From positions 496,001-560,000 of the forward strand of contig NZ_CP033367.1 in assembly GCF_013170845.1 (NCBI RefSeq): 64,000 nucleotides of DNA, given 5' to 3'. Origin of the DNA: Mesorhizobium loti R88b. Its GTDB lineage: Bacteria; Pseudomonadota; Alphaproteobacteria; Rhizobiales; Rhizobiaceae. Each line of letters begins with the position of its first letter. Position 1 is the stretch's first letter. The translations under genes and the position numbers were made by a program. The notes beneath the pieces are model-generated. The model saw only the letters and a program-made list of their open reading frames with translations. It made no database searches and was not told where the DNA came from. Shown here piece by piece: positions 17,816 through 36,413 of this stretch.

Positions 17816-17885
17816 CACCCCGCATTGGCTTTTCCGCAGATTTCAGGCAAATCTCCTCGCCTGTAATTCGGCATGGAGAAGCGTG

Positions 17886-18872: not shown

Positions 18873-18885
18873 CTCTTTGTTTGAC

Positions 18886-18928
18886 GCAATTCCGGACGGA
18901 AAACCGCTCACACTTTTCCTGGAATGGC
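18886..18928. repeat. Palindromic intergenic repeat (GCAATTCC family)
   Basis: Inverted repeat bounded by GCAATTCC and GGAATGGC (one mismatch), with inner GGAAAACCG and ACTTTTCC. Almost the same core occurs at 41558. Confidence 0.65.
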
Positions 18929-18956
18929 GTTAGCCGGCTAATCCTGGGGAGGAAAA

Positions 18957-20615
18957 ATGGCTGACGACGCGGACGTGATCATTGTCGGTGCCGGCCTTGC
19001 CGGGCTGGTTGCCGCCGCCGAGCTTGCCGAGGCCGGCAAGAAGATCATCATCGTCGACCAGGAGCCGGAGCAGTCGCTGGGCGGCCAGGCGTTCTGGTCG
19101 TTCGGTGGGCTTTTCCTCGTCGATTCGCCTGAACAGCGGCGCATGCGCATCCGCGATTCGCATGATCTGGCGCTCGAGGACTGGATGGGCACCGCCGCCT
19201 TCGACCGGCCGGAGGATTTCTGGCCGCGCAAATGGGCGGAGGCCTATGTCGGCTTCGCCGCCGGCGAAAAGCGCTCCTGGCTGATGCAACGCGGCTTGAA
19301 ATTCTTTCCCGTGGTCGGCTGGGCAGAGCGGGGCGGCGGCAATGCCATCGGCCATGGCAATTCGGTGCCGCGCTTCCACATCACCTGGGGCACCGGACCC
19401 GGTGTGCTTGAACCTTTTGTCCTGCGCGTGCGCGAGGCGCAGAAACGTGGGTTGATCGACTTCAAGTTCCGCCACCGGGCCAATGAACTGACGCGGACAG
19501 GCTCAACCATAACCGGCGTTCGCGGCGATATCCTCGGGCCGAGCACGGTCGAGCGCGGCCACAAGAGCTCGCGCGACATAGCAGGCGATTTCGAGCTGCA
19601 TGCGCAAGCGGTGATCGTCGCCTCCGGCGGCATCGGCGCCAACCATCAGCTGGTGCGGGAAAACTGGCCCAAGCGGCTGGGCGCCGCTCCCAAGCGCATG
19701 ATCACCGGCGTGCCCGACCATGTCGACGGCCGCATGCTGGCCATCACCGAAGCGGCCGGCGGCTCGATCATCAACCGCGACCGCATGTGGCACTATGTCG
19801 AGGGCATCAAGAACTGGGCGCCGATCTGGACCGACCATGCCATCCGCATCCTGCCCGGTCCGTCGTCGCTGTGGCTCGATGCCAGGGGAAAACGCCTGCC
19901 GGTGCCGCTCTATCCCGGCTTCGACACGCTGGGCACGCTCAGCCATATCATGAGCACCGGTTTCGATTATTCCTGGTTCATCCTGACCAGGAAAATCATC
20001 CAGAAGGAGTTCGCGCTGTCGGGCTCGGAACAGAATCCGGATTTGACGGGCAAGAGCTGGCGCCAGGTGCTCGGCCGCGCCACTTCGGGGATTCCCGGCC
20101 CGGTGAAAGCGTTCATGGAGAAAGGCGAGGACTTTATTGTCGAGGCCGACCTTTCGAAGCTGGTGGCGCGCATGAATGCGCTGGCCGGCGGCGAGCCGCT
20201 GCTCGACGTCGCACAGGTGGAGCGCGAAATCCGTGCTCGCGACCGACAGCTCGACAATCCGTTCTCCAAGGACATGCAGGTCACCGCCTTGCGCGGTGCG
20301 CGCGCCTATCTCGGTGACAGGCTGATCCGCACGGCCAAGCCGCACAAGATGCTCGACCCGGCAAACGGCCCGCTGATCGCGGTGCGCCTCAACATCCTGA
20401 CGCGCAAGACGCTGGGCGGCCTACAGACCGATCTCGACAGTCGCGTGCTGGGCGCCGATGGCCAGCCGGTGCCCGGGCTCTACGCCGTCGGCGAAGCCGC
20501 CGGATTCGGCGGCGGCGGCGTGCATGGCTATGCGGCGCTGGAAGGCACCTTCCTTGGCGGCTGCATCTTTTCCGGCCGCAGCGCCGGCCGGGCAGCTACT
20601 GCCTCGGTGGCGTAA
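18957..20615 (+). CDS. FAD-binding dehydrogenase (fumarate reductase/KstD-like)
   Basis: 552 residues. N-terminal FAD site IIVGAGLAGLVAAAELAEAG with the following acidic turn IIIVDQEPEQSLGGQAFWS, and C-terminal FAD site GLYAVGEAAGFGGGGVHGYAALEGT. This matches the flavoprotein group annotated as FAD-binding dehydrogenase, related to fumarate reductase flavoprotein and 3-ketosteroid dehydrogenases. Substrate unknown. The ATG follows GGGGAGG. No partner subunit is adjacent. Confidence 0.88.
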   Translation: MADDADVIIVGAGLAGLVAAAELAEAGKKIIIVDQEPEQSLGGQAFWSFGGLFLVDSPEQRRMRIRDSHDLALEDWMGTAAFDRPEDFWPRKWAEAYVGFAAGEKRSWLMQRGLKFFPVVGWAERGGGNAIGHGNSVPRFHITWGTGPGVLEPFVLRVREAQKRGLIDFKFRHRANELTRTGSTITGVRGDILGPSTVERGHKSSRDIAGDFELHAQAVIVASGGIGANHQLVRENWPKRLGAAPKRMITGVPDHVDGRMLAITEAAGGSIINRDRMWHYVEGIKNWAPIWTDHAIRILPGPSSLWLDARGKRLPVPLYPGFDTLGTLSHIMSTGFDYSWFILTRKIIQKEFALSGSEQNPDLTGKSWRQVLGRATSGIPGPVKAFMEKGEDFIVEADLSKLVARMNALAGGEPLLDVAQVEREIRARDRQLDNPFSKDMQVTALRGARAYLGDRLIRTAKPHKMLDPANGPLIAVRLNILTRKTLGGLQTDLDSRVLGADGQPVPGLYAVGEAAGFGGGGVHGYAALEGTFLGGCIFSGRSAGRAATASVA

Positions 20616-20807
20616 AACGACGCCATCGCTGTCGCCTGAGGCCCTATACGCCCGGGCGATAAACATATGACTTTTTTATATTTTTCAGATTTCGCCCGCC
20701 TCGAATACAAATGCCGATGCTTTTATCTTTCTGAGTGCAGCCGGTGCTGAGCCGCTGCAGGCAGTCGCCACCTCGTGGTGGCAGTTACAGAAAGAAGGAA
20801 GTCTTCG

Positions 20808-20999
20808 ATGTTCCTCTCAGACGGGCTCTATCTGCCCACCCATCGTCCGTTGCCGGCGTCGCAGGTCGAACAGATCAGGCGTGCGGCCAACAGCAATCGC
20901 GCGCCGGTCAGCCTGGTCGCGCCGTTCACACCGACATGGTGGCTCCTGGTCGTCGGCGCCTTGCTGGCCGCCGCCGCGATCGCTGCCCAGCTTTCCTGA
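20808..20999 (+). CDS. Small single-pass membrane protein of unknown function
   Basis: 63 residues: a polar N-half (MFLSDGLYLPTHRPLPASQV) and one C-terminal membrane segment (WWLLVVGALLAAAAIAAQL). Not recognised. A good ribosome site (AGAAGGAAG) precedes the ATG, and a GCCACC/GGTGGC hairpin lies 25 bases upstream. The leader 20616-20807 is unusually AT-rich around 20670-20700. First of three small genes before a dapA-family gene. Confidence 0.6.
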   Translation: MFLSDGLYLPTHRPLPASQVEQIRRAANSNRAPVSLVAPFTPTWWLLVVGALLAAAAIAAQLS

Positions 21000-21015
21000 G
21001 AGACAGGAGATAACC

Positions 21016-21237
21016 ATGCAAAGTTCCCCTATTCCTCCCGACGGAAATGCCCTTCACCGCTTCGTCGTCGGGCGCGATGGCGAAGGCCACTGGATCGCGC
21101 GTGACGAGGAGGGCCAGACCGGCGGCGTTTTTGCCGACCGGAATTCCGCTGTCCGTTTCGCCACGATGGAAAGCGGCCATCGCGCCGGAGCGATCCGCTT
21201 CGCCCCGGCAAGTGTGCGGCTTTCCCTGTTCAATTGA
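21016..21237 (+). CDS. Small protein of unknown function
   Basis: 73 residues (MQSSPIPPDGNALHRFVVGR). The central HWIARDEEGQTGGVFADRNSAVRFAT has the W-x-A...G-x-F...A-x-x-F/A rhythm seen in small DUF2188-like proteins, but the resemblance is weak. CAGGAGAT precedes the ATG, 16 bases after the previous stop, so the pair is probably cotranscribed. Confidence 0.6.
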   Translation: MQSSPIPPDGNALHRFVVGRDGEGHWIARDEEGQTGGVFADRNSAVRFATMESGHRAGAIRFAPASVRLSLFN

Positions 21238-21275
21238 GCCGCGCCCGGTTCCGAACTGATCGGAACGATCTGGCC

Positions 21276-21860
21276 ATGCACAATTCCAACACCATTGCTG
21301 CGCCCAACAGCGCCGATCTCGCCGGATTGCTTGATCGCCTGCCGCATGTCGGCAGGCTGCTTGAGCACCAGCTCTGGGAGGCGGCACGCGCCCTGTCACT
21401 CGACAGATCGTCCCGACAAGGTCGGCGATTTGCCGGCCTGGTCGAGGCCGGCGCCATGCTCGACGCCGTCCTCCTGCTCGTCGCTTCGTCGAAGCCGGAG
21501 CGTTCGGTGTCGGCCATCGGCAAAGCCGGCGCGCGCTGGCTCTGTTCCATCCAAATGACATCCGCAGGAACAACGGTCGGGGCCGGCACAATCGAAGCGG
21601 ACCACATCGATCTGGCTGCAGCGCTGCTGTCGGCCCTGCTTTCCTCGCACCTCGAAAAGACGGTGCATCCAAAAATTCATCCAGGAGACTCTGATTGCCA
21701 TGACCCCAGAACAAGCCCGAATGCGCCTGACCGGAGCGATGACCGCGCTGGTAACGCCGCTCACCGACGGCGAGGTCGATCTGAAGCAGCTGACCGCTCT
21801 GTTGCGCTGGCAGATCGAACAAGGGATCAACGGGCTGGTCCCATGCGGCACCACAGGTGA
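21276..21860 (+). CDS. Protein of unknown function overlapping dapA-like gene
   Basis: Open frame beginning MHNSNTIAAPNSADLAGLLDRLP. The first 140 or so residues have coding character (LAGLLDRLPHVGRLLEHQLW, AGAMLDAVLLLVAS), but the last 55 residues run inside the dapA-like gene in another frame and are arginine/aspartate-rich nonsense in appearance. Either the gene really overlaps by 160 bases or its true end was lost by mutation. A start at 21234 overlapping the previous stop region is also possible. Confidence 0.45.
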   Translation: MHNSNTIAAPNSADLAGLLDRLPHVGRLLEHQLWEAARALSLDRSSRQGRRFAGLVEAGAMLDAVLLLVASSKPERSVSAIGKAGARWLCSIQMTSAGTTVGAGTIEADHIDLAAALLSALLSSHLEKTVHPKIHPGDSDCHDPRTSPNAPDRSDDRAGNAAHRRRGRSEAADRSVALADRTRDQRAGPMRHHR

Positions 21861-22653
21861 GGCCCCGACCCTGTCGTGGGAGGAGCGCCTCGACATCATC
21901 GCGCTGTGTGTGAAAATCGCCGGCGGCAGGGTGCCAATCATTGCCGGCACCGGAACCAACAGCACAGAGACGACGATCGCCTTTTCGACAGCCGCCGAAG
22001 CCTTTGGTGCCGACGCCGCCCTGATCGTGACGCCCTACTACAACAGGCCGAGCCAGGAAGGGATCTTTCGCCATTTTGAAGCGGTCGCGGCCAAGGTCAG
22101 GATACCGATCATCGTCTACAATGTGCCGGCGCGAACCGGCGTCGACCTGTCCGAGGAGACGATCGAACGCCTGGCGCAGATTCCGACCATTATCGGCATC
22201 AAGGACGCCACCGGCGATGTGAGCCGGCTATCCATGCTTCCGGCTGTGCTCAGGCGCCGCTTCATCTGCCTCTCCGGTCACGACGCGACATCGTTCGGCT
22301 TCAACACGATGGGCGGGCGCGGAACGATCTCGGTGGTCTCCAACGTCGCGCCGCGGCTGTGCGTGGAGATGCATGATGCGTGCCGGCAGGGCGACCACCA
22401 CACCGCGCGAGCCATCCACCACCGCTTGCGGCCGCTGATCGCGGCGCTTGAACTGGAGAGCAATCCCGCGCCGGTCAAATATGCGCTCAGCGTGGCGCTT
22501 GGCATGAGCCCGGATGTCCGCTTGCCGATGACAGCTGTTCGCCCTGAAACCGCAACTGCGATCCGAGAGGCGATGTTGGGGCTGAGCGAGGCTGGATTCA
22601 GGATCGGCCAGTCAAGGCCGGCGGCGGCCGCGAATGCGCAGCGCCAATTCTGA
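21700..22653 (+). CDS. dapA: Dihydrodipicolinate synthase family protein
   Basis: 317 residues. TIM-barrel lyase; the DapA catalytic set is complete: Thr51-Thr52 (PCGTTGEAP), Tyr114 (PYYNRP), Tyr140 (IVYNVPARTG), Arg145 and the Schiff-base Lys168 (GIKDATGD). It condenses pyruvate with aspartate semialdehyde if a true DapA. The C-terminus is about 20 residues longer than usual (SRPAAAANAQRQF), and the surroundings are not lysine genes, so it may be a paralogue. Start preceded by CAGGAG. Confidence 0.85.
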   Translation: MTPEQARMRLTGAMTALVTPLTDGEVDLKQLTALLRWQIEQGINGLVPCGTTGEAPTLSWEERLDIIALCVKIAGGRVPIIAGTGTNSTETTIAFSTAAEAFGADAALIVTPYYNRPSQEGIFRHFEAVAAKVRIPIIVYNVPARTGVDLSEETIERLAQIPTIIGIKDATGDVSRLSMLPAVLRRRFICLSGHDATSFGFNTMGGRGTISVVSNVAPRLCVEMHDACRQGDHHTARAIHHRLRPLIAALELESNPAPVKYALSVALGMSPDVRLPMTAVRPETATAIREAMLGLSEAGFRIGQSRPAAAANAQRQF

Positions 22654-23067: not shown

Positions 23068-24006
23068 TCACCAGCGCCAGGAGCCTTGTCCAAGCGCCGC
23101 CACCGCATCGACGATCCGCGTGAAACTTTCGCGGGCGCGACCGACCGTGTGCCGTGCCCTGAGATAGCCGTGCACCAAGCCCGGTTCCTCGAACCAGGTG
23201 GCGCGCCCGCCTGCGGCGATGACAAGGTCACGATAGGTCTCGCCGTCTGAAGACAGCGGGTCACACTGCGCGGTGATCAGCACTGTCGGCGGCAAATTGG
23301 CGAAGTCGGTGTCGGCCAGTGCTGACAGCGTTACATCGCCGGTCCGGTCCGCGCCGCCGGTGCGAATATGCTTGTAGAATTCGAGATCACGCATGGTCAG
23401 CATCGGCGCTTCGGCGTGCGTGACATAGGAGCCCTTCGAGCGGTCGCCGCCGAGACCGGGATAGATCAGCACCTGGCCGACCGGCCTTTTCGCGTGGCCG
23501 CGCGTGGCGTGGCTGACGGCGGCGCAGAGATTGCCGCCGGCGCTGTCGCCGCAGAGCAGGATGGGGCGTTCGCGGGTGGACGCAGCCCATGCGGAGGCGT
23601 TCATCGCATCGTCGAAGGCGGCTGGATGCAGATACTCCGGCGCCAGCCGGTAGTCGACCGAAATCACCTCGTAGCCGGTGCGAGCGCAGAGCTCGGCGCA
23701 GACATCGTCATGGCTGTCCAACCCGCCAAGGATGAAGCCGCCGCCATGGATGTAGAGCACTGTCGCTGCCGGTTGCGGGGCGGTGCGGTAGATGCGGATC
23801 GGAATGTGGTACGTGGGCGTTGCTATCGAAGAGGTTTCGGCCGTGACACCCTGGGGATAGCCGGCAAAGAATTCCCGGCACATGCGGTCGTAAATCGCGC
23901 GCTGTTGGGTGATCGTGTAGTCAATCGTATCGGGCGGGTAGTAGGAGTTGGTCCGCTCGATGAAGGCCCAGGTCTCGGCGTCGATAAGGGTTTTGTAGTC
24001 GGTCAT
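23068..24006 (-). CDS. HSL-family alpha/beta hydrolase (acetyl-esterase type)
   Basis: 312 residues. Oxyanion motif HGGG at 87-90 (LYIHGGGFILGG) and the nucleophile motif GDSAGGN with Ser155; the acid and base are near VLITAQCDPLSSDGE and EPGLVHGYLR. This is the hormone-sensitive-lipase family of bacterial esterases. It is separated from the carnitine-type genes upstream only by a repeat and may belong to that cluster as an esterase for an acylated precursor, which is inference. The ATG follows AAAGGAGCTCC. Confidence 0.87.
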   Translation of the reverse strand: MTDYKTLIDAETWAFIERTNSYYPPDTIDYTITQQRAIYDRMCREFFAGYPQGVTAETSSIATPTYHIPIRIYRTAPQPAATVLYIHGGGFILGGLDSHDDVCAELCARTGYEVISVDYRLAPEYLHPAAFDDAMNASAWAASTRERPILLCGDSAGGNLCAAVSHATRGHAKRPVGQVLIYPGLGGDRSKGSYVTHAEAPMLTMRDLEFYKHIRTGGADRTGDVTLSALADTDFANLPPTVLITAQCDPLSSDGETYRDLVIAAGGRATWFEEPGLVHGYLRARHTVGRARESFTRIVDAVAALGQGSWRW

Positions 24007-24130: not shown

Positions 24131-24913
24131 TCACTTCCCCTTCCACACCGGATCGCGCTTCTCCGCGAAGGCTCGAAACCCTTCCATATTGTCCTCCGAA
24201 CCATAGAGCGCATCGACCGTCGCCAGCTGGCGCCGCGTCACGCGGTTCATCGCATCCTGGAAGGTCAGGGACTCGGCCACCCGTGCCGTCTCCTTGATCG
24301 CGGCGAAGACCAGCGGCGGGCCGCCGGCGAGCAGCCTTGCGATCTCCCAGACGCGATCCTCGAGCTTTTCCTTGGGCAGCACCTCGTTGACCAGGCCCCA
24401 GCGATGCGCCTCGGCGACATCCATCCAGCGGCCGGTGAGCAGGAGGTCCATGGCGACATGGTAGGGGATGCGCTTGGGCAGCTTGATCGTCGCCGCGTCG
24501 GCCAGCGTGCCGGCGCGGATTTCGGGCAGCGCGAAGGACGAATGGTCTGATGCGTAGATGAGGTCGCATGACAGCGCCAGTTCGAAGCCGCCGCCCACCG
24601 CCATGCCGTTGACGCAAGCAATGACCGGCTTGTTCAAGTCGCGCAATTCCTGCAGGCCGGCAAAGCCGCCGACGCCGTAATCGCCGTCGACCGCATCGCC
24701 GCTGGCGGCCGCCTTCAGGTCCCAGCCGGCGCAGAAGAACTTGTCGCCTGATGTCTTGACGATGGCGACGCGCAGGTCCGGATCGTCACGGAACGCCTTG
24801 AAGGTTTCGCCCATCAGCCGCGAGGTCTTGAGATCGATGGCGTTGGCCTTGGGCCGATCGAGCGTGACCTCGAGAATGGTGCCTTCGCGGCGGGTTGAAA
24901 TGACGTCAGACAT
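24131..24913 (-). CDS. caiD: Enoyl-CoA hydratase, CaiD-like (crotonobetainyl-CoA hydratase)
   Basis: 260 residues, the same length as E. coli CaiD (261) and strikingly alike: LDRPKANAIDLKTS, FRDDPDLRVAIV, AGWDLKAAASGDA, GGFAGLQEL, and the C-terminus EKRDPVWKGK. CaiD interconverts L-carnitinyl-CoA and crotonobetainyl-CoA. Overlaps the upstream CoA ligase by eight bases. In an aerobic rhizobium the likely direction is hydration of crotonobetainyl-CoA to carnitinyl-CoA. Confidence 0.85.
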   Translation of the reverse strand: MSDVISTRREGTILEVTLDRPKANAIDLKTSRLMGETFKAFRDDPDLRVAIVKTSGDKFFCAGWDLKAAASGDAVDGDYGVGGFAGLQELRDLNKPVIACVNGMAVGGGFELALSCDLIYASDHSSFALPEIRAGTLADAATIKLPKRIPYHVAMDLLLTGRWMDVAEAHRWGLVNEVLPKEKLEDRVWEIARLLAGGPPLVFAAIKETARVAESLTFQDAMNRVTRRQLATVDALYGSEDNMEGFRAFAEKRDPVWKGK

Positions 24914-26990
24914 TCTTGTCTTCTCCCAGCACCAGCAGCGCGTCGGCGATCCAGGCACCCTTGCCTTCGACGCAGACGATCAGCGGGTTGATGTCGAGTT
25001 CCTCGATCTCGCCGGCATTCTTCTGCACGAATCCGGCAATGCCCGCGATGGCGTCGATGGCAGAAGCGACGTCGGCCTTCGGCCGACCGCGATAGCCTTC
25101 AAGCAGCGGGAACAGTTTGAGGCCGCGCAGCGCGGCCTCGATGTCGTCACGGGTTGCCGGCAGCATCAGCGTCACGCTGTCACGCAGCAATTCAACCAGC
25201 ACGCCGCCGGTGCCCAGCGTCATCACAGCACCGAACATCGGATCCCTGGTGAAGCCGACGATCAGTTCGGCAACGCCGTCGCGCACCATGCGCTCGACAT
25301 AGAGGCCCGTGCCGAGCGGCAGCAGATCATGCGCCGCCGTGCTGACGGATTCGGCATCCCTGAGGTTGAGCCTGACAGCGCCAACCTCGGATTTATGGGC
25401 AACCCCTAGGGCCTTCAGGGCGACGGGAAAGCCGAGCGCCATCGACGAGATGACCGCCTCGACCGCATTGCCGGCGCGCTCGCCCTTCGGCACTGGAAGC
25501 CCGGCCTTGATCAGCCGCGCCTTGGCTTCAGCCTCGTCGGGCGTAACGTGACCGCCGCCGGCAGCACCGGAAGCGGACGTGTCAATCGGCTGCGCCTGCG
25601 GTTCAGCCCAGGCCCAGCCGATGAAGGCCGCAGCGCCTGCGGCATCCATCGCCTCCGAAATGCCGAACAATGGCACCATGCCACGCGCCATCAGCTCGGC
25701 GGTATATTCTTCCGGCAGGTTTTCAGGCAGCGAGGAAACGATAGCGCCATGCGCCTTATTGGTCTTCAACGCCGATTCGAAAGCGCGCAGCGTCGCCCAC
25801 CAGTCGGTGACCGAGCATCGGTCCGGACGCGGGAAATCGAGCACCAGCATGTTGAGGTCGAAACCGCCCGATACCATGGCGGTGAAGGTGGCGGTCATCG
25901 CCGGCTCGTTGTTCCAGATGAAGGTGTGATAATCCAACGGGTTGGCGACCGCGACCAGCGGCCCGAGCGTTGATTTGACGTGGGCGCGGTGTTTTTCCGT
26001 CAGCACCGGGAAGTTGACCCAGCGGCCTTCGGCGCTGTCGGCCATCACGGAAGCCTCGCCGCCCGAACAGCTCATCGATGACAGCCTATAGCCGGGCAGC
26101 GGGCCGGTGATGTGCAAGAGCTTCAACGCCTCGATGAAGGCAGGAATGGAATCGACGCGGGCGATGCCGAGCCGCCTCAGGAAGGCACCCGATGCCGCGT
26201 CCGAGCCGGCCAGCGAGGCAGTGTGCGAGACAGTTGCCTGCCGCGCCTGTTCGGAGCGGCCGACCTTCATGGCGATGATCGGCTTTTTCAGCTCGCGCGC
26301 CCTGGCGGCCAACCGTTCGAAGCCGGCTACCGAATCGAAGGCCTCAATGTGCAGGCCGAGCGAGGTGACCCGGTCGTCCTCGATCAGGCCGAGCGCCATT
26401 TCGGACAGGCCGGTCTGCGCCTGGTTACCGGCTGTCATCAGGAAGGCGATGGGCAGGCCGCGCTTCTGCATCGTCATGTTGATGGCGATGTTGGACGACT
26501 GGGTGATGATGGCGACGCCTTTGCCGCCTTCCTCCAGCCTGATGCCGCCATGCTGGTCGGGCCACAGCAGCGCGCCGTCGGCATAGTTGATCAGGCCATA
26601 GCAGTTCGGCCCGATGATCGGCATCTGTCCGGCGGCCGCGACCAGTTCGGCCTGCAGCCGTTCGCCATCATCGTCATAGGCCTCGGTCTCGAGGAAACCG
26701 GCGGCAAAGCAGACGGCGCCGCCAGCGCCGCGCTCGGCCAGCGCCTTGATGACCTCGATGGTCAGATGCCTGTTGACGCCGACAAAGGCCGCATCGGGCG
26801 CGCCGGGCAATTCGGCGACGGAACGATAGGCCTTGCGCCCGGCGACCTCGTCCTTGGTCGGATGCACAGGCCAGATTTCGCCGGCAAAGCCCATCTTGAT
26901 CGATTGCGCAACGACCGCGGCCGCTTGCACGCCACCGAAGACGGCGATCGATTTCGGGCGCAGGAGACGTTCGAGTTTATGCATGGTCAT
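24906..26990 (-). CDS. Acetate--CoA ligase (ADP-forming)-type acyl-CoA synthetase
   Basis: 694 residues. N-terminal CoA-binding domain (LRPKSIAVFGGVQAAAV), succinyl-CoA-ligase-like middle (IIGPNCYGLIN, GVAIITQSSNIAINM, SHTASLAGSDAA) and C-terminal ATP-grasp domain (about 480-694; GFPVALKALGVAHKSEVGAV, VGFTRDPMFGAVM). These NDP-forming ligases activate acids to CoA esters. In this cluster the substrate is probably gamma-butyrobetaine or carnitine, taking the place of CaiC; that is inference from neighbours. Confidence 0.87.
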   Translation of the reverse strand: MTMHKLERLLRPKSIAVFGGVQAAAVVAQSIKMGFAGEIWPVHPTKDEVAGRKAYRSVAELPGAPDAAFVGVNRHLTIEVIKALAERGAGGAVCFAAGFLETEAYDDDGERLQAELVAAAGQMPIIGPNCYGLINYADGALLWPDQHGGIRLEEGGKGVAIITQSSNIAINMTMQKRGLPIAFLMTAGNQAQTGLSEMALGLIEDDRVTSLGLHIEAFDSVAGFERLAARARELKKPIIAMKVGRSEQARQATVSHTASLAGSDAASGAFLRRLGIARVDSIPAFIEALKLLHITGPLPGYRLSSMSCSGGEASVMADSAEGRWVNFPVLTEKHRAHVKSTLGPLVAVANPLDYHTFIWNNEPAMTATFTAMVSGGFDLNMLVLDFPRPDRCSVTDWWATLRAFESALKTNKAHGAIVSSLPENLPEEYTAELMARGMVPLFGISEAMDAAGAAAFIGWAWAEPQAQPIDTSASGAAGGGHVTPDEAEAKARLIKAGLPVPKGERAGNAVEAVISSMALGFPVALKALGVAHKSEVGAVRLNLRDAESVSTAAHDLLPLGTGLYVERMVRDGVAELIVGFTRDPMFGAVMTLGTGGVLVELLRDSVTLMLPATRDDIEAALRGLKLFPLLEGYRGRPKADVASAIDAIAGIAGFVQKNAGEIEELDINPLIVCVEGKGAWIADALLVLGEDKNV

Positions 26991-27000
26991 CTTTTCGTTT

Positions 27001-27051
27001 GAGCATCATTTTGTCTCAAAAGCCGAACTCCGGCTTTTGGCGATCATGCTC
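27001..27051. repeat. Palindromic intergenic repeat (GAGCATCAT family)
   Basis: Inverted repeat bounded by GAGCATCAT and GATCATGCTC with an inner CAAAAGCCG / CGGCTTTTG stem. It lies between two minus-strand genes of one cluster and ends at the last base of the downstream stop codon region. Confidence 0.7.
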
Positions 27052-28214
27052 TAAGCCCCGAACGGACGCAGCAGCGCCCGCGAAATAATATGTCGCTGAA
27101 TTTCCGAAGTGCCTTCCCAGATGCGCTCGACGCGGGCGTCGCGCCAGATGCGCTCCAACGGCAGGTCGTCCATCAGGCCCATGCCGCCATGGATCTGGAT
27201 TGCTTCGTCGGCGACGAAAGCGAGCATTTCGGTGGCCTTCAGCTTGGCCATGGCCATGTCCTGGTCGGTGACGGTGCCCTGATCGTACTTCCAGCCGGCT
27301 TCGAACACCATCAGGTCGGCGGCCTTGAGTTCGGTCGCCATGTCGGCGAGCTTGAACGACACGCCCTGGAACTTGCCGATCTGCTGGCCGAACTGCTGGC
27401 GCTGTGCGGCATATTCGACCGCATGGCCAAGCGCCCGCTCGGCGCGGCCGAGGCAGGTGGCGCCGACCTGCAGCCGGGTGGCGCCGAGCCAGGAATTGGC
27501 AACGTCGAAACCCTTATGCACTTCACCCAGAACCTGGGATGCCGGCAGGCGGCAATCATCGAATTCGAGGATGGCGTTGGTGTAGCCGCGATGCGAGACG
27601 TTGCGGTAGCCGTCGCGCACCGTAAAACCCTTGGTGCCCTTGTCGACGAAGAAGGCGGTGATCTTCTTGCGCTTGCCACGCGGCGAATCCTCTTCGCCCG
27701 AAGCCATGAAGACGATGGCGAAATCGGCGAGATCGGCGTGGGAGATAAAGTGCTTGGTGCCGTTGAGCACCCAGTCGTCGCCATCCTGCACCGCGGTCGC
27801 CTTCATGCCGCGCAGATCCGAACCGGCGCCAGGCTCGGTCATCGCAAGGCAGTCCCATTTCTCGCCACGGATGCAAGGGAACAGGTACTTTTCGCGCTGC
27901 TCCGGCGTGCCGGCGAGAAGGATGTTGGAGGGACGCGCCACGCAGGTCCAGTGCAGCGCGTAGTTGGCGCGGCCGAGTTCCTTTTCGTAGAGCAGCCACG
28001 TCACCGTATCCAGCCCCGCGCCGCCGACATCGGCCGGCATGTTGGCGGCGTAGAGGCCGGCTTCGATCGCCTTGACCTTGATCTCCTCGATCAGGTCACG
28101 GCGCAGCACGCCAGTGCGCTCCACTTCGCGCTCATGCGGGTAAAGCTCATTCTCGACGAAGGCGCGCGTCGTCTCGACAATGAGTTTCTGTTCCTCCGAC
28201 AGACCGAAATCCAT
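27051..28214 (-). CDS. Acyl-CoA dehydrogenase (gamma-butyrobetainyl-/crotonobetainyl-CoA type)
   Basis: 387 residues, full-length ACAD: LAMTEPGAGSDLRGMKATA (FAD/substrate loop), LNGTKHFISHAD, and the C-terminal QIHGGMGLMDDLPLERIWRDAR plus RIWEGTSEIQRHII with the catalytic-region glutamate. Flanked by CaiD-like and carnitine dehydrogenase genes, it most likely oxidises gamma-butyrobetainyl-CoA to crotonobetainyl-CoA. Specificity is inferred from context; electrons would pass to ETF, not encoded here. Confidence 0.87.
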   Translation of the reverse strand: MDFGLSEEQKLIVETTRAFVENELYPHEREVERTGVLRRDLIEEIKVKAIEAGLYAANMPADVGGAGLDTVTWLLYEKELGRANYALHWTCVARPSNILLAGTPEQREKYLFPCIRGEKWDCLAMTEPGAGSDLRGMKATAVQDGDDWVLNGTKHFISHADLADFAIVFMASGEEDSPRGKRKKITAFFVDKGTKGFTVRDGYRNVSHRGYTNAILEFDDCRLPASQVLGEVHKGFDVANSWLGATRLQVGATCLGRAERALGHAVEYAAQRQQFGQQIGKFQGVSFKLADMATELKAADLMVFEAGWKYDQGTVTDQDMAMAKLKATEMLAFVADEAIQIHGGMGLMDDLPLERIWRDARVERIWEGTSEIQRHIISRALLRPFGA

Positions 28215-28218
28215 GGTC

Positions 28219-29313
28219 TCAGCCCTTCTTCTTTTTCTTCGGCTTTTCGGCCTTTTTCACCGGCTTGGAGGCCTTGGCTTTTTCGGCTGCCTTGGAGGCA
28301 GCCGGCTTCTTGGCCGCCAGCTTGGCCAGCTGCCTGGTATAGTCCTTGTGCAGCGCGCCGGCACCCCAGCCCTTGCCCTTGTTCTGCTTCGACAGCGCAT
28401 CCATGATGGCGACCAGATTGTCGTCGCGGATCTTTTCCAGTTCGCGGATCGACAGGCCATGCGCCTGGTCATCCGACTGGGTGGCGATCAGGTCGACCAG
28501 CTCGTCGTTGAATTCCGGCACGTCCATCAGCTTGGTCCATGGCCATTTCAGGCACGGCCCGAACTGGGCCATGAAGTGGCGCATGCCGGCTTCGCCGCCA
28601 GCGACGCGATAGACCTGGAACATGCCCATCTGCGCCCAGCGCAGGCCGAAACCGTAGCGCATGATGTCGTCGAGTTCCTCGACGGTGCAGATGCCGTCCT
28701 TGATCAGCCACAGCGCCTCGCGCCATGCGGCTTCGAGCAAGCGGTCGCCGACGAAGGCCTCGATCTCCTTGCGGATGACGACAGGCTTCATGCCGATCGA
28801 CGCATAGATCTCCTTGGCGACCTCGATCGCCTCCGGGAAGGTCTGCTCGCCGCCGACGATCTCGACCAGCGGCAGGAGATAGACCGGATTGAACGGGTGG
28901 CCGACGACCAGCCGCTCGGGATGCTTCTTCATCGCCACCTGCATGTCGGTCGGCTTGATGCCTGATGTCGACGAGCCGACAATGGCGTTGGCCGGCGCAC
29001 GGGCATCGATCTCGGCCAGCACCTTGTGCTTGAGGTCGAGCCGTTCCGGCACGCTTTCCTGGATGAAATCGGCATCGGCCACCGCCTCGGCAATGGTCTT
29101 GGCGAAGGTCAGCTTGCCCTCTTTCGGCAAGCCGCCGGGCACCATCTGCTTGTAGGCCCGGCGCGCGCCCTTCATCACTTCCGAGACCTTGCGCGAGGCT
29201 TCGGGATCGGGATCGAAGATCGACACGTCGATGCCGTTCAAGAGCAGCCGCGCCACCCAGCCGGCGCCGATGACACCGCCACCAATGGCGGCCGCCTTGT
29301 TAATGATGCTCAT
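28219..29313 (-). CDS. lcdH: L-carnitine dehydrogenase (3-hydroxyacyl-CoA dehydrogenase family)
   Basis: 364 residues. NAD site AAIGGGVIGAGWVARL at 8-23 and the family motifs SSTSGIKPTDMQ and VVGHPFNPVYLLPLVEIVGG, which are those of carnitine 3-dehydrogenases. Oxidises L-carnitine to 3-dehydrocarnitine. The last 50 or so residues are a Lys/Ala/Pro-rich tail ending KKPKKKKKG, absent from compact family members; some rhizobial homologues carry a fused thioesterase there instead. Overlaps the HD gene by four bases. Confidence 0.9.
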   Translation of the reverse strand: MSIINKAAAIGGGVIGAGWVARLLLNGIDVSIFDPDPEASRKVSEVMKGARRAYKQMVPGGLPKEGKLTFAKTIAEAVADADFIQESVPERLDLKHKVLAEIDARAPANAIVGSSTSGIKPTDMQVAMKKHPERLVVGHPFNPVYLLPLVEIVGGEQTFPEAIEVAKEIYASIGMKPVVIRKEIEAFVGDRLLEAAWREALWLIKDGICTVEELDDIMRYGFGLRWAQMGMFQVYRVAGGEAGMRHFMAQFGPCLKWPWTKLMDVPEFNDELVDLIATQSDDQAHGLSIRELEKIRDDNLVAIMDALSKQNKGKGWGAGALHKDYTRQLAKLAAKKPAASKAAEKAKASKPVKKAEKPKKKKKG

Positions 29314-29939
29314 GCTGAGGCTCCGGTTCTTGTCTTGGCAGTTTCTGGATCGATGAGAGGCACGCGCTCGCCGGCGCGGATCACCGCGGGGTCGTAGGCC
29401 TTACGGGCAAAGACTTCGAGCACGAAGGGTCTGAAAAATTCGATCGGCAGCGTCTCGTAGTCAGGGTCGAAGCTCGACTGGTCCCAGCGTTCGCAAAACT
29501 GGTCGCAATCGTCGAAATAGGCATGACCGGCGAAGCGGTCGCGGGCATGCCGGTTGCCGCCGAGATGGTGGGCGTAATAGAGGCGCTGGAAATCGCCGTG
29601 CTTTTCCACCACCCAGGTGCATTGCTCGCGCACGAAGGGTTTCAGGATCGAAGCGGCGTATTCGTCGTGATTGTAAGGCGCATAGATGTCGCCAATGTCA
29701 TGCAGCACGGCACACGCGATCCAGTCCGTGTCGGCGCCGTCGCGCCAGGCACGCGTCGCCGCCTGCAGCGAATGGCCTAGCCGGGTGATCTTGTATCCCG
29801 ACAGGCCTTCATCGAGCTGCACCAGCGCGTCGAGCAATCGCTCGCCGGTCTTGGCGGCATAGTCGATCTCATGCTCGGTCAGGAACTCGTAATCGTCCTT
29901 GTCGCCATCCTTCATCGCGGTGAATTTGACGGTTGTCAT
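29310..29939 (-). CDS. HD-domain protein of the carnitine cluster, possible diiron enzyme
   Basis: 209 residues. Histidine/aspartate ligands follow the HD pattern: H56 (RLGHSLQAATRA), H80-D81 (CAVLHDIGDIY), H91 (PYNHDEYAA) and H114 (VVEKHGDFQRLYY), with several acidic residues near 143-160. The H56-H80 spacing and the HxxQ turn resemble PhnZ-type HD mixed-valence diiron oxygenases rather than nucleotide phosphohydrolases. Lies between the BKACE and carnitine dehydrogenase genes, overlapping the latter by ATGA. Its reaction is unknown. Confidence 0.82.
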   Translation of the reverse strand: MTTVKFTAMKDGDKDDYEFLTEHEIDYAAKTGERLLDALVQLDEGLSGYKITRLGHSLQAATRAWRDGADTDWIACAVLHDIGDIYAPYNHDEYAASILKPFVREQCTWVVEKHGDFQRLYYAHHLGGNRHARDRFAGHAYFDDCDQFCERWDQSSFDPDYETLPIEFFRPFVLEVFARKAYDPAVIRAGERVPLIDPETAKTRTGASA

Positions 29940-29959
29940 GTCGATCTCCAGCGATTGAA

Positions 29960-30877
29960 TTAAGCTGCTATTGGCGCCCGTTTGGTCAGGTTGAGCTTCT
30001 GGCGCACTTCCTCCGGTCCCAGGATCCTGGCCCCGAGATTGGTGACGATGCTGGCGGCGCGCTCGACGAGCTGTGCATTGGTGGCGAGCACGCCCTTGTC
30101 GAGCCACAGATTGTCTTCGAGACCGACGCGGACATTGCCGCCGGCCAAAACGGCAGCGGCCGCATAGGCCATCTGGTTGCGGCCGATGGCGAAGGCCGAC
30201 CAGTTCCAGGTCGACGGCACGTTGTTGACCATAGCCATGAAGGTGTTGAGGTCGTCAGGCGCTCCCCACGGCACGCCCATGCACAATTGCACAAGCGCGT
30301 CCGCGTTTAGGACCTTTTCCTCGACCAGCTGCTTGGCGAACCAGAGATGGCCGGTGTCGAAGGCCTCGATCTCGGGCTTGACGCCGAGCGCCGTCATCAT
30401 GCCGCCCATGGCGCGCAGCATGCCGGGCGTGTTGGTCATGACATAATCGGCCTCGGCGAAGTTCATGGTGCCGCAGTCGAGCGTGCAGATTTCCGGCAGG
30501 CACTGGCGCACATGTTCCATGCGGTTGGTGGCGCCGCCCATGTCGGTGCCCTTTTCGTTGAGCGGCAACGGCGCCTCGGGCGAACCGAACACCATGTCGC
30601 CGCCCATGCCGGCGGTGAGGTTCAGGATGACGTCGACGTTCGCGGCACGAATGCGTTCGGTCACCTCGCGGTAGAGATGCACATCGCGGCGCGGCTTGCC
30701 GGTCTCGGGGTCGCGCACATGGCAGTGGACGATTGCAGCGCCGGCCTTGGCCGCATCGATGGCCGAATCGGCGATCTGCTTGGGCGAGCGCGGTACATGC
30801 GGGCTGCGATCCTGCGAACCGCCGGATCCGGTCACGGCACAGGTAATGAAAACCTCACGGTTCATCGCAAGCGGCAT
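29960..30877 (-). CDS. BKACE (beta-keto acid cleavage enzyme), probable dehydrocarnitine cleavage
   Basis: 305 residues of the DUF849/BKACE family. Zinc ligands H51 and H53 in IVHCHVRDPETG, with the family segments VILNLTAGMGGD and GNVRVGLEDNLWLDKG. These enzymes split a beta-keto acid with acetyl-CoA. Next to a carnitine dehydrogenase the substrate is almost certainly 3-dehydrocarnitine, giving betainyl-CoA and acetoacetate. The ATG at MPLAMNREV was chosen because GGGAGGAG precedes it. First gene of the operon. Confidence 0.9.
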   Translation of the reverse strand: MPLAMNREVFITCAVTGSGGSQDRSPHVPRSPKQIADSAIDAAKAGAAIVHCHVRDPETGKPRRDVHLYREVTERIRAANVDVILNLTAGMGGDMVFGSPEAPLPLNEKGTDMGGATNRMEHVRQCLPEICTLDCGTMNFAEADYVMTNTPGMLRAMGGMMTALGVKPEIEAFDTGHLWFAKQLVEEKVLNADALVQLCMGVPWGAPDDLNTFMAMVNNVPSTWNWSAFAIGRNQMAYAAAAVLAGGNVRVGLEDNLWLDKGVLATNAQLVERAASIVTNLGARILGPEEVRQKLNLTKRAPIAA

Positions 30878-30905
30878 GGAATTCTCCTCCCAATCGAAAC
30901 AACCA

Positions 30906-30952
30906 TGCATGTCGCCCAAAAGTGGGAACCGGTTTTGGGACAACGACATGCA
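30906..30952. repeat. Palindromic repeat in the divergent carnitine promoter region
   Basis: Inverted repeat TGCATGTCG / CGACATGCA with inner CCCAAAAGT and CCGGTTTTGGG. It occupies over a third of the gap between the BKACE operon and its divergent regulator, so their promoters must lie around it. Confidence 0.65.
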
Positions 30953-31013
30953 CAGGAACCCGCACAACATTGCGCGGCTTGCGGGATCCTGCTTTACGTT
31001 TTACGAAGCTACT

Positions 31014-31994
31014 ATGATAAAAACCGAAAGAGCGACAATCTTTCGCGCCGAGCAGTCGCCGCTCAAGGTGACGCTGCTGGTGTTTTCCGGGGCGTCCATC
31101 ATGTGCGTGGCATGCACCGTTGATCCGCTGCGCGCCGCCAACCGTATCGCCGGCGAAACCTTGTTCGACTTCAAACTGGTTTCGGTGACCGGCGAGGCGC
31201 CGGTCACGACATGCGGCTTGCCCGTGGCGGTCAGCGGCCGGTTCGATGCGACGGAACCAACCGACGTGCTGATCGTGGTCGCGGGCTTCGGCACACAGAA
31301 CTATGCCACGTCAGCGCTGCTTGCCGGCCTGCGCCGCGCGGCGCGTTCGGCCCGCGCCTGCGGCGGCGTCGAGGCCGGCACATGGCTGGTGGCGCGCGCC
31401 GGCTTGCTGGAAGGGCGCAGCGCCACCACCCATTGGGAGGACATGGAGGATTTCTCGTCCGCCTTTCCCGGTGTCGACGTGCGCCCCGATCGATACATCA
31501 TCGATGGGCCGGTGTTCACCACGGGCGGGGCGTCGCCGACCCTGGATCTGATGTTGCACCTGATTCGCACCCGGCTCGGCATGGCCGTGGCGCTCGATGT
31601 GGCAAGCGCGTTCATCTACGATCAGGCGCGGGTGGCGACCGATGCGCAGCCGCTGGTCTCGCTTGGCCGGCTCGACGGCTACGACCCGCGTCTGGCGCAG
31701 GCCATTCGGCTGATGGAAGCGCATGTCGATCAGCCGCTGACCATCGAAGCCATCGCAAAGCGTGCCGGCGTGACGGCGCGAACACTGGAAAGCATCTTTC
31801 GCAAGTCGATCGGCGAGACGCCGGGCGCCTATTATCTGAGGCTGCGGCTGGGGGCCGCGCGCCGGCTGGTCGTCGACACGCGGATAGCGATGGCCGATAT
31901 TGCCGGGCGGACGGGATTCTCTTCCGCCGCGGCATTTTCCAGAGCGTTTTCAAGAGCTTTTGGCGAAGCCCCAGTCAGGCTGCGCCGAGGATAA
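31014..31994 (+). CDS. GlxA-family AraC-type regulator, CdhR-like
   Basis: 326 residues. N-terminal DJ-1/PfpI-like domain (about 15-185; VFSGASIMCVACTVDPLRAAN, GVEAGTWLVARAGLL) and C-terminal AraC double helix-turn-helix (LTIEAIAKRAGVTARTLESI; MADIAGRTGFSSAAAFSRAF). This layout matches CdhR, the activator of carnitine catabolism in Pseudomonas, and the gene is divergent from the carnitine operon. The ATG at MIKTERATIF is preferred; the upstream in-frame extension crosses the palindrome and BKACE. Confidence 0.88.
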   Translation: MIKTERATIFRAEQSPLKVTLLVFSGASIMCVACTVDPLRAANRIAGETLFDFKLVSVTGEAPVTTCGLPVAVSGRFDATEPTDVLIVVAGFGTQNYATSALLAGLRRAARSARACGGVEAGTWLVARAGLLEGRSATTHWEDMEDFSSAFPGVDVRPDRYIIDGPVFTTGGASPTLDLMLHLIRTRLGMAVALDVASAFIYDQARVATDAQPLVSLGRLDGYDPRLAQAIRLMEAHVDQPLTIEAIAKRAGVTARTLESIFRKSIGETPGAYYLRLRLGAARRLVVDTRIAMADIAGRTGFSSAAAFSRAFSRAFGEAPVRLRRG

Positions 31995-32959: not shown

Positions 32960-34285
32960 TCAGACGTAGCGGTTGACTATGTTTTCCAGCAGTTCCTGGC
33001 GGCCGGAGCGCGGCTGCGGCTCGATCTTCTTCTTCACGACGCGCTCGGCGATGTCCTCTAGCGTGCGCTTGCCCGACAGCATCGCCTTGGCCTCGGTGCT
33101 GTTCCAGCCGGCATAGCGCTCGGCCAGCGGACCCGACAGCGCCTTGTCCTCGACCATGCGAGCAGCTGCCTTCAGGCCGCGTGCGCAAGAGTCCATGCCG
33201 CCGATGTGGCCGATCAGCAGATCCTGCGGGTCAAGCGACTGGCGGCGCAGCTTCGCGTCGAAATTGGTGCCGCCGGTCTTGAAGCCGCCGGCCTGCAGGA
33301 CCTGATAGTAGGCCAATGCCATTTCCGGCACATTGTTGGGGAACTGGTCGGTGTCCCAGCCCGACTGGTAGTCGTTGCGGTTCATGTCGATCGAGCCGAA
33401 GACGCCGAGCGCATTGGCCAGCGCCAGTTCGTGCTCGAAGGAATGGCCGGCGAGAATAGCATGGCCCTGCTCGATGTTGAGCTTGACTTCCTTCTCCAGC
33501 CCGAAGCGCTTGAGGAAGCCGTACACGGTGGCGACGTCATAATCGTACTGGTGCTTTGTCGGCTCCTGCGGCTTCGGCTCGATCAGGATGGTGCCCTTGA
33601 AGCCGATCTTGTGCTTGTAGTCGACGACGAGGCTGAGGAAGCGGCCGGCCTGTTCCTGCTCGCGGGCAAGATCGGTGTTGAGCAGCGTCTCATAGCCCTC
33701 GCGCCCGCCCCACAGCACGTAGTTCTCGCCCTTCAGCCGCTTGGTGACGTCGATGCAGCTTTTCACCGTCGCCGCCGCATAGGCAAACACATCCGGATCA
33801 GGATTGGTGGCGGCGCCCGACATGAAGCGGCGATTGGAGAACAGGTTCGCCGTGCCCCACAGAAGCTTGACGCCGGTCTGCTTCATCTTGGTGGCAAAAT
33901 AGTCCGCGATCTCGTCAAGGCGGGCAGCGCTTTCGGAAAAATCCTTGCCCTCGGGCCGCACATCGGCGTCATGGAAGCAGAAATAGGGCGCGCCGAGCAG
34001 CGAGAACATCTCGAAGGCGACATCGGCCTTGAGTTTGGCCAGTTCCATCGTGTCGACGCCGCCGGCCTTGGGGAACCAGGGACGGTCGAAAGTCTGTCCG
34101 CCGAACGGATCGCCGCCCGGCCAGGCGAAGGAATGCCAATAGGCGACGGCAAAGCGCAGATGGTCTTCCAGCCGCTTGCCGGCGACCACCTCGTCGGGAT
34201 TGTAGAACCGGTAGGCCAGCGGATTGGTCGAATCCGGCCCCTCATATTTGATCTTCTGGATGTCGCCGAAAAATCCGCTGCTCAT
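32960..34285 (-). CDS. xylA: Xylose isomerase
   Basis: 441 residues, normal for the larger group II enzymes. Isomerises D-xylose to D-xylulose. Catalytic histidine and aspartate in [14 protein letters not shown], metal and substrate residues in [20 protein letters not shown] and in [17 protein letters not shown], and the [17 protein letters not shown] metal loop. Works with the xylulokinase downstream, although a divergent NTF2-like gene lies between them. Confidence 0.97.
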
Positions 34286-34958: not shown

Positions 34959-36413
34959 TCACGCGGTTACAGCCTTGATCGCCGGGTAGAGCGCCCGGTA
35001 GCGCCGATAAGCATCCGCATAGGCATCGCTCAAACCAGCATCCGGTTCAATCGTGGCATCCGTCCTGGGTGCCGTGCACACGGCCAGCGGATCAGCCCCC
35101 GTCGCCGCGATCAGTCCAAGCCTCGCCGCCCCAAAGGCGGCGCCAAAATCGCCGTCGGCGGGGATGTCCACCGGCACTTGCAGCGCGGTGGCGATCGATT
35201 TCAGCCAGTAGCGCGAACGGGAGCCGCCGCCGATCGCCGTCACCCGCGTCAAGGTGGTGCCGGCCGTCTTCAGGGCTTCGAGGCTGTCGCGGAAGGCGAA
35301 GGCGACGCCTTCGAGGACGGCCTGCGTCAGCACCGCGCGGCTTGATTCATGCGCCAGCCCGGTGAACGACCCGCGGATGGCGGAATCATTGTGCGGCGTG
35401 CGCTCGCCAGAGAGATAGGGCAGGAAGGACACGCCGCTCGGCGCCTTCAGCGTGTCGCCGAGTTCCGATGTCAGCTCGCCGGCCCCCTTACCCGTGATCT
35501 CCGACAGCCAGTTGAGCGAATCGGTCGCCGACAGGATGACGCCCATCTGGTGCCAGGTGTTGGGCAGCGCATGGCAGAAGGTGTGGACCGCACTGGCCGG
35601 ATTGGGCAGATAGGACGCGTTGGCGGCAAACAGCACGCCCGATGTGCCCAGCGAAACAAAGGCATGGCCGGCGCCGACCGTGCCCATGCCGCAGGCCGAA
35701 GCCGCATTGTCGCCGGCGCCACCGGCAACCGGTATGCCGGCCTCGACGCCCCATTTCGACGCCAGTTCGGCACGCAACGCGCCGGCCTTCTGCGTGCCCT
35801 CGACCAGCGACGGCATCTGCTTTTCATCAAGTGATGTCGCCGCCAGCAATTCGGCGGACCAGCGGCGCTTGCCGACATCGAGCCAGGACGTGCCGGCCGA
35901 ATCGGACATTTCCGAAATGCGCTCGCCGGTCAGCCAGAGCCGCAGGAAATCCTTCGGCAGCAGCACCTTCGCAACCTTGGCGAAAACCGCCGGCTCGTTG
36001 TTCTTCACCCAGGCGAGTTTTGGCGCGGTGAAGCCAGGGAAGACGATGTTGCCGGTCAGCGCGCGGAAGCGCGGGTCGGCGTCGAGTGCCGCCGCTTCGG
36101 CGTGGCTGCGCGTATCGTTCCACAGGATGCAGGGGCGCAGCACATGATCGGCCGCATCGAGCAAGGTGGCGCCATGCATCTGGCCCGACAGGCCGATGCC
36201 TTTCACCGCCGCGAACTGCCTGGGGTGGGAAGCCTTCAGTTCGGCGATCGCGTCTTCGCAGGCGCGTATCCAGTGCGACGGATCCTGTTCGGACCAGCCG
36301 GGATGCGGCCGCGAAACGTCAAGCGTGCCATGGCCGGAGCCGATGACGGTCTGTCCGGCATCGATCAGCAGCGCCTTGACGCCCGACGTGCCCAGGTCGA
36401 GGCCGAGATACAT
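34959..36413 (-). CDS. xylB: Xylulokinase
   Basis: 484 residues. FGGY-family kinase that phosphorylates D-xylulose. N-terminal LGLDLGTSGVKALLID phosphate motif, substrate segments GLSGQMHGATLLD and WNDTRSHAEA, and C-terminal ATP site AIGGGSRSRYWLKSIATAL. Same strand as xylA but not contiguous with it. No XylR-type regulator or xylose transporter is visible in the window. Confidence 0.95.
   Translation of the reverse strand: MYLGLDLGTSGVKALLIDAGQTVIGSGHGTLDVSRPHPGWSEQDPSHWIRACEDAIAELKASHPRQFAAVKGIGLSGQMHGATLLDAADHVLRPCILWNDTRSHAEAAALDADPRFRALTGNIVFPGFTAPKLAWVKNNEPAVFAKVAKVLLPKDFLRLWLTGERISEMSDSAGTSWLDVGKRRWSAELLAATSLDEKQMPSLVEGTQKAGALRAELASKWGVEAGIPVAGGAGDNAASACGMGTVGAGHAFVSLGTSGVLFAANASYLPNPASAVHTFCHALPNTWHQMGVILSATDSLNWLSEITGKGAGELTSELGDTLKAPSGVSFLPYLSGERTPHNDSAIRGSFTGLAHESSRAVLTQAVLEGVAFAFRDSLEALKTAGTTLTRVTAIGGGSRSRYWLKSIATALQVPVDIPADGDFGAAFGAARLGLIAATGADPLAVCTAPRTDATIEPDAGLSDAYADAYRRYRALYPAIKAVTA

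Follow-up and report, generated by a model that had tools for sequence, protein, structure and literature searches.

The 64-kb stretch of Mesorhizobium loti R88b DNA analysed here (the window; G000:C1:496001-560000 of a 7.2-Mb genome held in a single contig) carries a minus-strand gene run and a divergent regulator gene, eight genes in all. They probably form a quaternary-amine operon of Mesorhizobium whose products lead from gamma-butyrobetaine and carnitine to glycine betaine. The pathway itself is already known; the additions made here are the probable location of its betainyl-CoA thioesterase, encoded far from the operon, and a lead on an HD-domain protein encoded within it.

Read 5′ to 3′ on the minus strand (coordinates are those of the window), the run comprises genes for a BKACE enzyme (29960-30877, within an open frame of 29960-30970), an HD-domain protein with a predicted PhnZ/TmpB-type diiron oxygenase fold (29310-29939), a short L-carnitine 3-dehydrogenase (CDH; 28219-29313), an acyl-CoA dehydrogenase (ACAD; 27051-28214), an NDP-forming acyl-CoA ligase (24906-26990), a CaiD-like hydratase (24131-24913, a start at 24913 being likelier than one at 24958) and, last, an alpha/beta-hydrolase (23068-24006). 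A GATase1-AraC regulator gene diverges from the run on the plus strand (approximately 31014-31994, tested as the open frame 30696-31994). Spacing is tight: the stop of the HD gene lies within a 4-bp overlap with the start of CDH, CDH and ACAD are 4 bp apart, the ligase and CaiD-like genes overlap by 8 bp, and the alpha/beta-hydrolase gene starts 124 bp past the CaiD-like gene on the same strand. By eye, GGGAGGAG precedes the BKACE ATG at 30877. An earlier annotation of this DNA, hereafter the original prediction, had described the ligase, ACAD, CaiD-like enzyme, CDH and BKACE as a minus-strand run with a divergent regulator, and Pfam and NCBIfam searches find all of them where it had put them; its inventory named six of the eight genes correctly and missed the HD and alpha/beta-hydrolase genes.

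Every catalytic step of the route is inferred from gene families and from work on Sinorhizobium meliloti, Pseudomonas aeruginosa and strain HK4. The NDP-forming ligase would link CoA to gamma-butyrobetaine, the ACAD would oxidise gamma-butyrobetainyl-CoA to crotonobetainyl-CoA and the CaiD-like enzyme would hydrate the latter to carnitinyl-CoA, which may lose its CoA through a thioesterase or through the ligase running in reverse. CDH would oxidise free L-carnitine, some of which may come from acylcarnitines hydrolysed by the alpha/beta-hydrolase, to dehydrocarnitine, which BKACE would combine with acetyl-CoA to give betainyl-CoA and acetoacetate. A stand-alone thioesterase (G000:C1:3702269-3702745), homologous to the domain that is fused to CDH in many relatives, would then turn betainyl-CoA into glycine betaine. 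The GATase1-AraC regulator would control the operon, in which the embedded HD protein may act as an accessory diiron oxygenase.

Database matches fit these assignments to differing degrees. CDH scores 596.2 bits on NF005716, above the curated cut-off of 592. BKACE reaches 326.6 bits on PF05853 (gathering score 24.8; E 1.6e-97) and matches PDB entry 3c6c at 9.3e-81; cleavage of dehydrocarnitine is proposed for it from its CDH neighbour. The CoA-binding (CoA_binding_2), Succ_CoA_lig and ATP-grasp_5 domains of the ligase score 56, 99.8 and 147.6 bits against gathering scores of 22.8, 27.4 and 27.6, and its nearest PDB entry is 8wzu, an ADP-forming 4-hydroxybutyrate--CoA ligase (1.1e-61); ligase residues 13-678 also align as a single stretch with 7cm9, named dimethylsulfoniopropionate (DMSP) lyase. 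For the CaiD-like hydratase (ECH_1, 2e-61), the best of 72 NCBIfam matches is PRK03580, crotonobetainyl-CoA hydratase, at 315.3 bits, and two of the nearest PDB entries are named carnitinyl-CoA dehydratase. The ACAD has the Acyl-CoA_dh N, M and C domains, matches PDB entry 5ol2 at 2.8e-71 and has acryloyl-CoA reductase as its top NCBIfam model (301 bits, below the cut-off). The regulator combines DJ-1_PfpI (GATase1) and AraC (HTH_18) domains and is divergent from the operon, the layout of CdhR and GbdR. Finally, the hormone-sensitive-lipase-like alpha/beta-hydrolase (Abhydrolase_3, 5.4e-53) is, by position and domain, a candidate O-acylcarnitine esterase.

Several of the specific models and signals expected for this route fall short, and these weigh against it. 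The CaiD-like enzyme stays below the PRK03580 cut-off of 500 bits, the ACAD scores 188.5 bits on the CaiA model (PRK03354) with its cut-off of 540, and the best NCBIfam match of the regulator, GbdR, reaches 201.9 of the 480 bits required. The 161-bp intergenic stretch has no two GGTCGC half-sites arranged as for CdhR (15 bp apart) when at least four of six matches are required in each half and spacers of 14-16 are allowed; a CdhR relative may use another sequence. Nor was an uptake or transporter gene recognised adjoining the operon.

Comparison with known systems helps to place the proposed route. The Agrobacterium/Rhizobium-related strain HK4 reportedly converts gamma-butyrobetaine to a CoA thioester, which is dehydrogenated and hydrated to yield L-carnitine and, ultimately, CO2 and ammonia (PMC3546705); its dehydrogenase-deficient mutant HK13 is reported to be in industrial use (PMC3546705, PMC2131755). 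The order of a CoA thioester, dehydrogenation, hydration and then carnitine dehydrogenase is what we propose for the window, HK4 being likened by its reported chemistry. In a patent, the HK4 genes are reportedly named bbs. The scheme of activation, dehydrogenation, hydration, oxidation and cleavage set out in the original prediction is the best reading, and its chemistry, already described for HK4, is not new.

In S. meliloti, SM2011_c01638 is credited with both CDH and betainyl-CoA-converting activities (PMC12482172, quoting Bazire 2019). The likeness lies in CDH and in the conversion of betainyl-CoA to betaine; the difference is that there one protein reportedly carries both activities, whereas the window CDH is without the thioesterase part and has an HD gene inserted beside it. 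In P. aeruginosa, the available excerpts describe a caiX-cdhCAB-hocS operon with a divergent cdhR and, at its end, hocS for the hydrolysis of short-chain acylcarnitines. Shared with the window, on that description, are a CDH-type operon, a divergent GATase1-AraC regulator and an alpha/beta-hydrolase placed last like hocS, whose product we take to have an alpha/beta-hydrolase fold. The excerpts do not mention a gamma-butyrobetaine block for the P. aeruginosa operon, which, as described in them, starts with the uptake gene caiX, a gene not found in the window operon.

The gene families, their order and their conservation can be followed directly across genomes. When the HD protein was used as bait, all eight genes were recovered in the window order in 75 of 80 named loci; three of the others lack the alpha/beta-hydrolase, one lacks the regulator and one stops after the ACAD, and BKACE-HD-CDH-ACAD is kept in all 80. 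Such a bait guarantees the presence of HD in these loci and not that of the other genes, and several loci end at contig ends. These best 80 named loci, 77 of which are titled Mesorhizobium, encode HD proteins to which that of the window is 91-99% identical. With the order so maintained, the cluster is not a product of chance. Compared with the window copies, median dN/dS values are 0.058 (HD, 79 loci), 0.055 (CDH, 61), 0.055 (CaiD, 77), 0.038 (BKACE, 77) and 0.036 (ACAD, 79); HD, with a value like those of its neighbours, is therefore under purifying selection as they are.

A wider view is obtained with CDH, which has a match at E<=1e-55 in 77 of 121 family genomes, that of R88b included. Of these, 73 were tabulated (omitted were G331, with a fragment, and G330, G362 and G380, with matches of 37-39%), and 28 of 60 CDH genomes of the class outside the family, mostly higher-scoring ones, were fetched. 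Neighbour labels rest on self-chosen bit-score thresholds, ‘near’ denotes within 8 kb of CDH, and contig ends cut some loci. On this basis, 72 of the 73 family loci and 25 of the 28 class loci have BKACE near CDH; in the family, a relative of the regulator is near it in 61 loci, the alpha/beta-hydrolase in 23 and HD in 10. The ACAD-ligase-CaiD block lies near CDH on the same strand in 50 of the 73 family loci and in four of the 28 class loci. An example is p42c of Rhizobium etli CFN 42, where a GlxA-family regulator is followed by BKACE (named 3-keto-5-aminohexanoate cleavage protein), carnitine 3-dehydrogenase, ACAD, an acetate--CoA ligase family protein, a carnitinyl-CoA dehydratase and then ABC transporter genes; the same five enzyme genes (BKACE, CDH, ACAD, ligase and CaiD-type) thus stand in the same order in p42c and in the window.

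These counts also bear on the substrate of the block. The substrate of ligase, ACAD and CaiD-like enzyme might instead be crotonobetaine, D-carnitine or a different onium acid (for example DMSP-like or propiobetaine-like), with carnitine and acylcarnitines as the main substrates of the operon. The acryloyl-CoA reductase model at the top of the ACAD list and the single-stretch alignment of the ligase with 7cm9, a DMSP lyase by name, would suit this alternative. However, the best match of the CaiD-like enzyme is crotonobetainyl-CoA hydratase, the block accompanies CDH in most family loci as just described, and a gamma-butyrobetaine route is reported for the rhizobial relative HK4. We regard a substrate other than gamma-butyrobetaine as rather improbable.

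The second half of the route turns on the form of CDH. Of the 495 positions of the NF005716 model, the window CDH covers only 1-346: the C-terminal thioesterase part is absent, and the protein has 364 aa, compared with 463-519 aa in 57 fused relatives. In many short CDHs of the clade of the window, lysine/alanine-rich tails of varying length occupy the place of the thioesterase domain of fused relatives, as at the end of the window CDH (28219-28320). Among the 73 family loci, 35 have a short CDH, like the window, and 38 a CDH fused to the C-terminal domain; L163 is counted as short in the neighbourhood table though a contig end cuts it and a thioesterase match is present. Fused-CDH Rhizobiaceae share the BKACE-CDH-ACAD-ligase-CaiD order of the window in 22 of 38 loci.

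The R88b genome encodes three 4HBT_2 proteins, and the one at G000:C1:3702269-3702745, about 3.2 Mb from the window, is the best match among them for all 57 fused domains (38 from the family, 19 from the class). The initial list of matches ran to E 10; recounted at E<=1e-10, 54 of 57 fused domains match this protein and none matches the other two. In NCBIfam, its own highest-scoring match (112 bits) covers positions 345-495 of the carnitine 3-dehydrogenase model. Of the 35 short-CDH genomes, 34 have an orthologue of at least 57% identity, and of the 38 fused-CDH genomes six have one of 53-70% (list compiled by hand, from 49% identity up), an association with CDH form that gives a Fisher p of 2e-13, uncorrected for descent. 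The D-x-N-x-H motif survives in 55 of these 57 domains, 43 identified by pattern and 12 by eye. It has been lost from the remaining two, L144 (G309) and L124 (G354), whose genomes have a stand-alone copy, of 70% and 67% identity, and so belong to the six fused-CDH genomes with such a gene. In G351, the stand-alone gene adjoins cdhR of the carnitine cluster. Outside the family, 13 hand-picked class genomes were checked, and 12 gave a stand-alone match at E<=1e-8. Among them are all eight whose fetched CDH is short and uncut, a less specific result given best identities of 34-44%. Taken together, these sequence patterns suggest that the unlinked stand-alone thioesterase probably hydrolyses betainyl-CoA and fills the gap in the pathway.

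A number of observations pull the other way. The short-CDH genome G353 has a stand-alone match of 33% only, and G105 (CDH frame of 334 aa) has none at E<=1e-8. Conversely, four fused-CDH genomes with an intact motif also possess the stand-alone gene, as do 19 genomes without a row in the CDH tables (including G331 with its CDH fragment and G362 with its 39% match), so that the role of this thioesterase would be wider. CDH form switches five times on the tree of this enzyme, and the stand-alone pattern follows clades; in four independent pairs on supported branches, the thioesterase changes in the same direction in 2.9 and in the opposite direction in 0.1 on average (sign test, median p 0.25), a phylogeny-aware test that lacks significance because the events are too few. 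The neighbours of the stand-alone gene (L178) are GlcD-like, RhtA-like, Dyp-type peroxidase and YghX-like genes, with no carnitine genes among them.

An NDP-forming ligase offers another way to release CoA. ADP-forming ligases are reversible, and the window enzyme, run in reverse, could free both carnitine and betaine from their CoA esters while keeping the bond energy as ATP, which would make the cluster self-sufficient. Of the 35 family loci with a short CDH, 28 also carry the full block, in agreement with this idea; with a fused CDH, 22 of 38 do. Still, the block is missing from seven of the 35 short-CDH loci, some of them cut by contig ends, whereas BKACE is present in 34, and it is the stand-alone thioesterase that tracks the short CDH form; we judge it unlikely that the ligase makes the cluster self-sufficient in this way. 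With hydrolysis by the unlinked thioesterase as the favoured reading, the proposal of a complete route in one cluster is not supported, the thioesterase most likely being encoded about 3.2 Mb away. That no thioesterase is visible in the cluster was seen correctly, the CDH being without this part, and a likely stand-alone candidate is present elsewhere in the genome. An unlinked betainyl-CoA thioesterase with a short-CDH pattern was not found in the literature searched, which omitted most subscription journals and was accessible in part.

The other addition concerns the HD protein. Its PDB sequence matches are PhnZ (4e-5) and TmpB (0.053), and an AlphaFold model built with 30 sequences (mean pLDDT 86.1, pTM 0.82) finds ten fold matches at E<=0.001, all of them chains of PhnZ or TmpB (TM-scores by query of 0.55-0.62), the next match having an E of 0.75. 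At H56, H80, D81, H91, H114 and D153, the residue named is the majority one at its position, present in 98% of 51 sequences; together these six reproduce the diiron ligand pattern H...HD...H...H...D, with H91 as the third histidine and D153 as the last aspartate according to our own alignment rather than a metal-site model. According to a review, these ligands mark HD-domain diiron oxygenases, only three of which it lists as characterised, and a YxxE loop marks PhnZ and TmpB (PMC8177086). The YxxE loop before the first ligand histidine is absent from the window protein, in which LSGY aligns by eye with YIGE of PhnZ, and its NCBIfam scores remain far below the cut-offs (HMPDioxPhnZ1 25.3 of 300 bits, TmpB 20.5 of 300, Phn-HD 31.1 of 214.6). 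An identity as PhnZ or TmpB itself was rejected on these grounds. With 17.9 bits, the protein also falls short of the gathering score of 25 of the MIOX family PF05153, which all 30 aligned HD members match at E<=10 (best 2.6e-6). The modelled fold and ligand pattern nevertheless make a diiron oxygenase with an accessory role in the operon, on balance, the better assignment, and its substrate is probably a trimethylammonium compound.

It is also conceivable that the HD protein is a hydrolase that replaces the missing thioesterase domain, since HD lies near CDH in nine of 35 short-CDH loci compared with one of 38 fused-CDH family loci. Yet 26 of the 35 short-CDH loci, some cut by contig ends, have no HD gene within 8 kb, L128 carries HD together with a fused thioesterase, and every fold match at E<=0.001 is to an oxygenase. 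The idea is thus highly improbable and was rejected on the first two of these counts. For relatives of the alpha/beta-hydrolase, the counts near CDH are 20 of 35 short-CDH and three of 38 fused-CDH family loci.

Beyond the operon, the oxygenase-like HD protein has matches at E<=1e-30 in 24 of 121 family genomes and at E<=1e-3 in 89 of 289 class genomes, the best match being weaker than 1e-30 in 11; none lies near CDH in the 28 class loci. Most HD relatives are away from carnitine genes and most CDH clusters are without HD, so that the link between HD and carnitine is a feature of one group. The fused thioesterase and the HD gene of L128 are both in genome G334. In L055, a further class locus from a 1.6-Mb genome (G161), HD, an opposed thioesterase-like gene, BKACE and CDH occur together. 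R88b itself has a second HD-oxygenase-like gene (G000:C1:5518255-5518863, L035), 69% identical to that of the window, with no carnitine cluster genes within the 20 kb examined around it. A 50% relative on the P. aeruginosa plasmid pF045_1 (L262) lies between a TauD-type dioxygenase gene and genes for a choline transporter, choline dehydrogenase and aldehyde dehydrogenase; a 68% relative on a Phaeobacter inhibens plasmid (L260) is annotated ‘inositol oxygenase family protein’, and the surroundings of HD relatives on three other plasmids are uninformative. HD domains in conjunction with carnitine were not found in the literature searched, from which most subscription journals were missing.

The PhnY/PhnZ and TmpA/TmpB systems are the closest comparison for these relatives. 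The window HD protein has the predicted fold and metal ligands of PhnZ and TmpB, and at least nine of the 40 HD loci examined are listed beside genes for TmpA-like or PhyH-like 2OG hydroxylases: at least six adjoin a TmpA-like gene (one on the other strand) and at least three a PhyH-like gene, the label being our own. Scores on the TmpA model, obtained for three of the six TmpA-like proteins, are 334-353 bits, under its cut-off of 400, and the three PhyH-like proteins have a chlorinating-enzyme model as their best match, below its cut-off. Unlike PhnZ and TmpB, however, the window protein is without the YxxE loop, lies far under the model cut-offs and sits in a run without a 2OG hydroxylase gene; R88b has two TmpA-like places (30-31% identity), neither of them close to an HD place. 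That the HD relatives elsewhere, some of them beside such hydroxylases, make up a broad betaine-yielding enzyme family is a speculative notion to which we give little credence.

The remaining neighbours of the cluster are a xylose isomerase gene (32960-34285) and a xylulokinase gene (34959-36413), both on the minus strand and adjoining it, and a set of plus-strand genes (17883-22653) for a Gfo/Idh/MocA oxidoreductase (17883-18872), an FAD-binding dehydrogenase (18957-20615; PRK12834, 989 bits) and a DHDPS-family protein (21700-22653).

Quaternary amines serve soil bacteria as sources of carbon and nitrogen and as osmoprotectants, and the gamma-butyrobetaine route underlies the industrial production of L-carnitine. 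Against this background, a single gene, unlinked to the operon, is now picked out for a large group of rhizobial relatives as the one that probably encodes the betainyl-CoA thioesterase. The embedded HD gene, in turn, suggests a new substrate for the HD-oxygenase family, and its carnitine setting narrows the choice of what that substrate may be.

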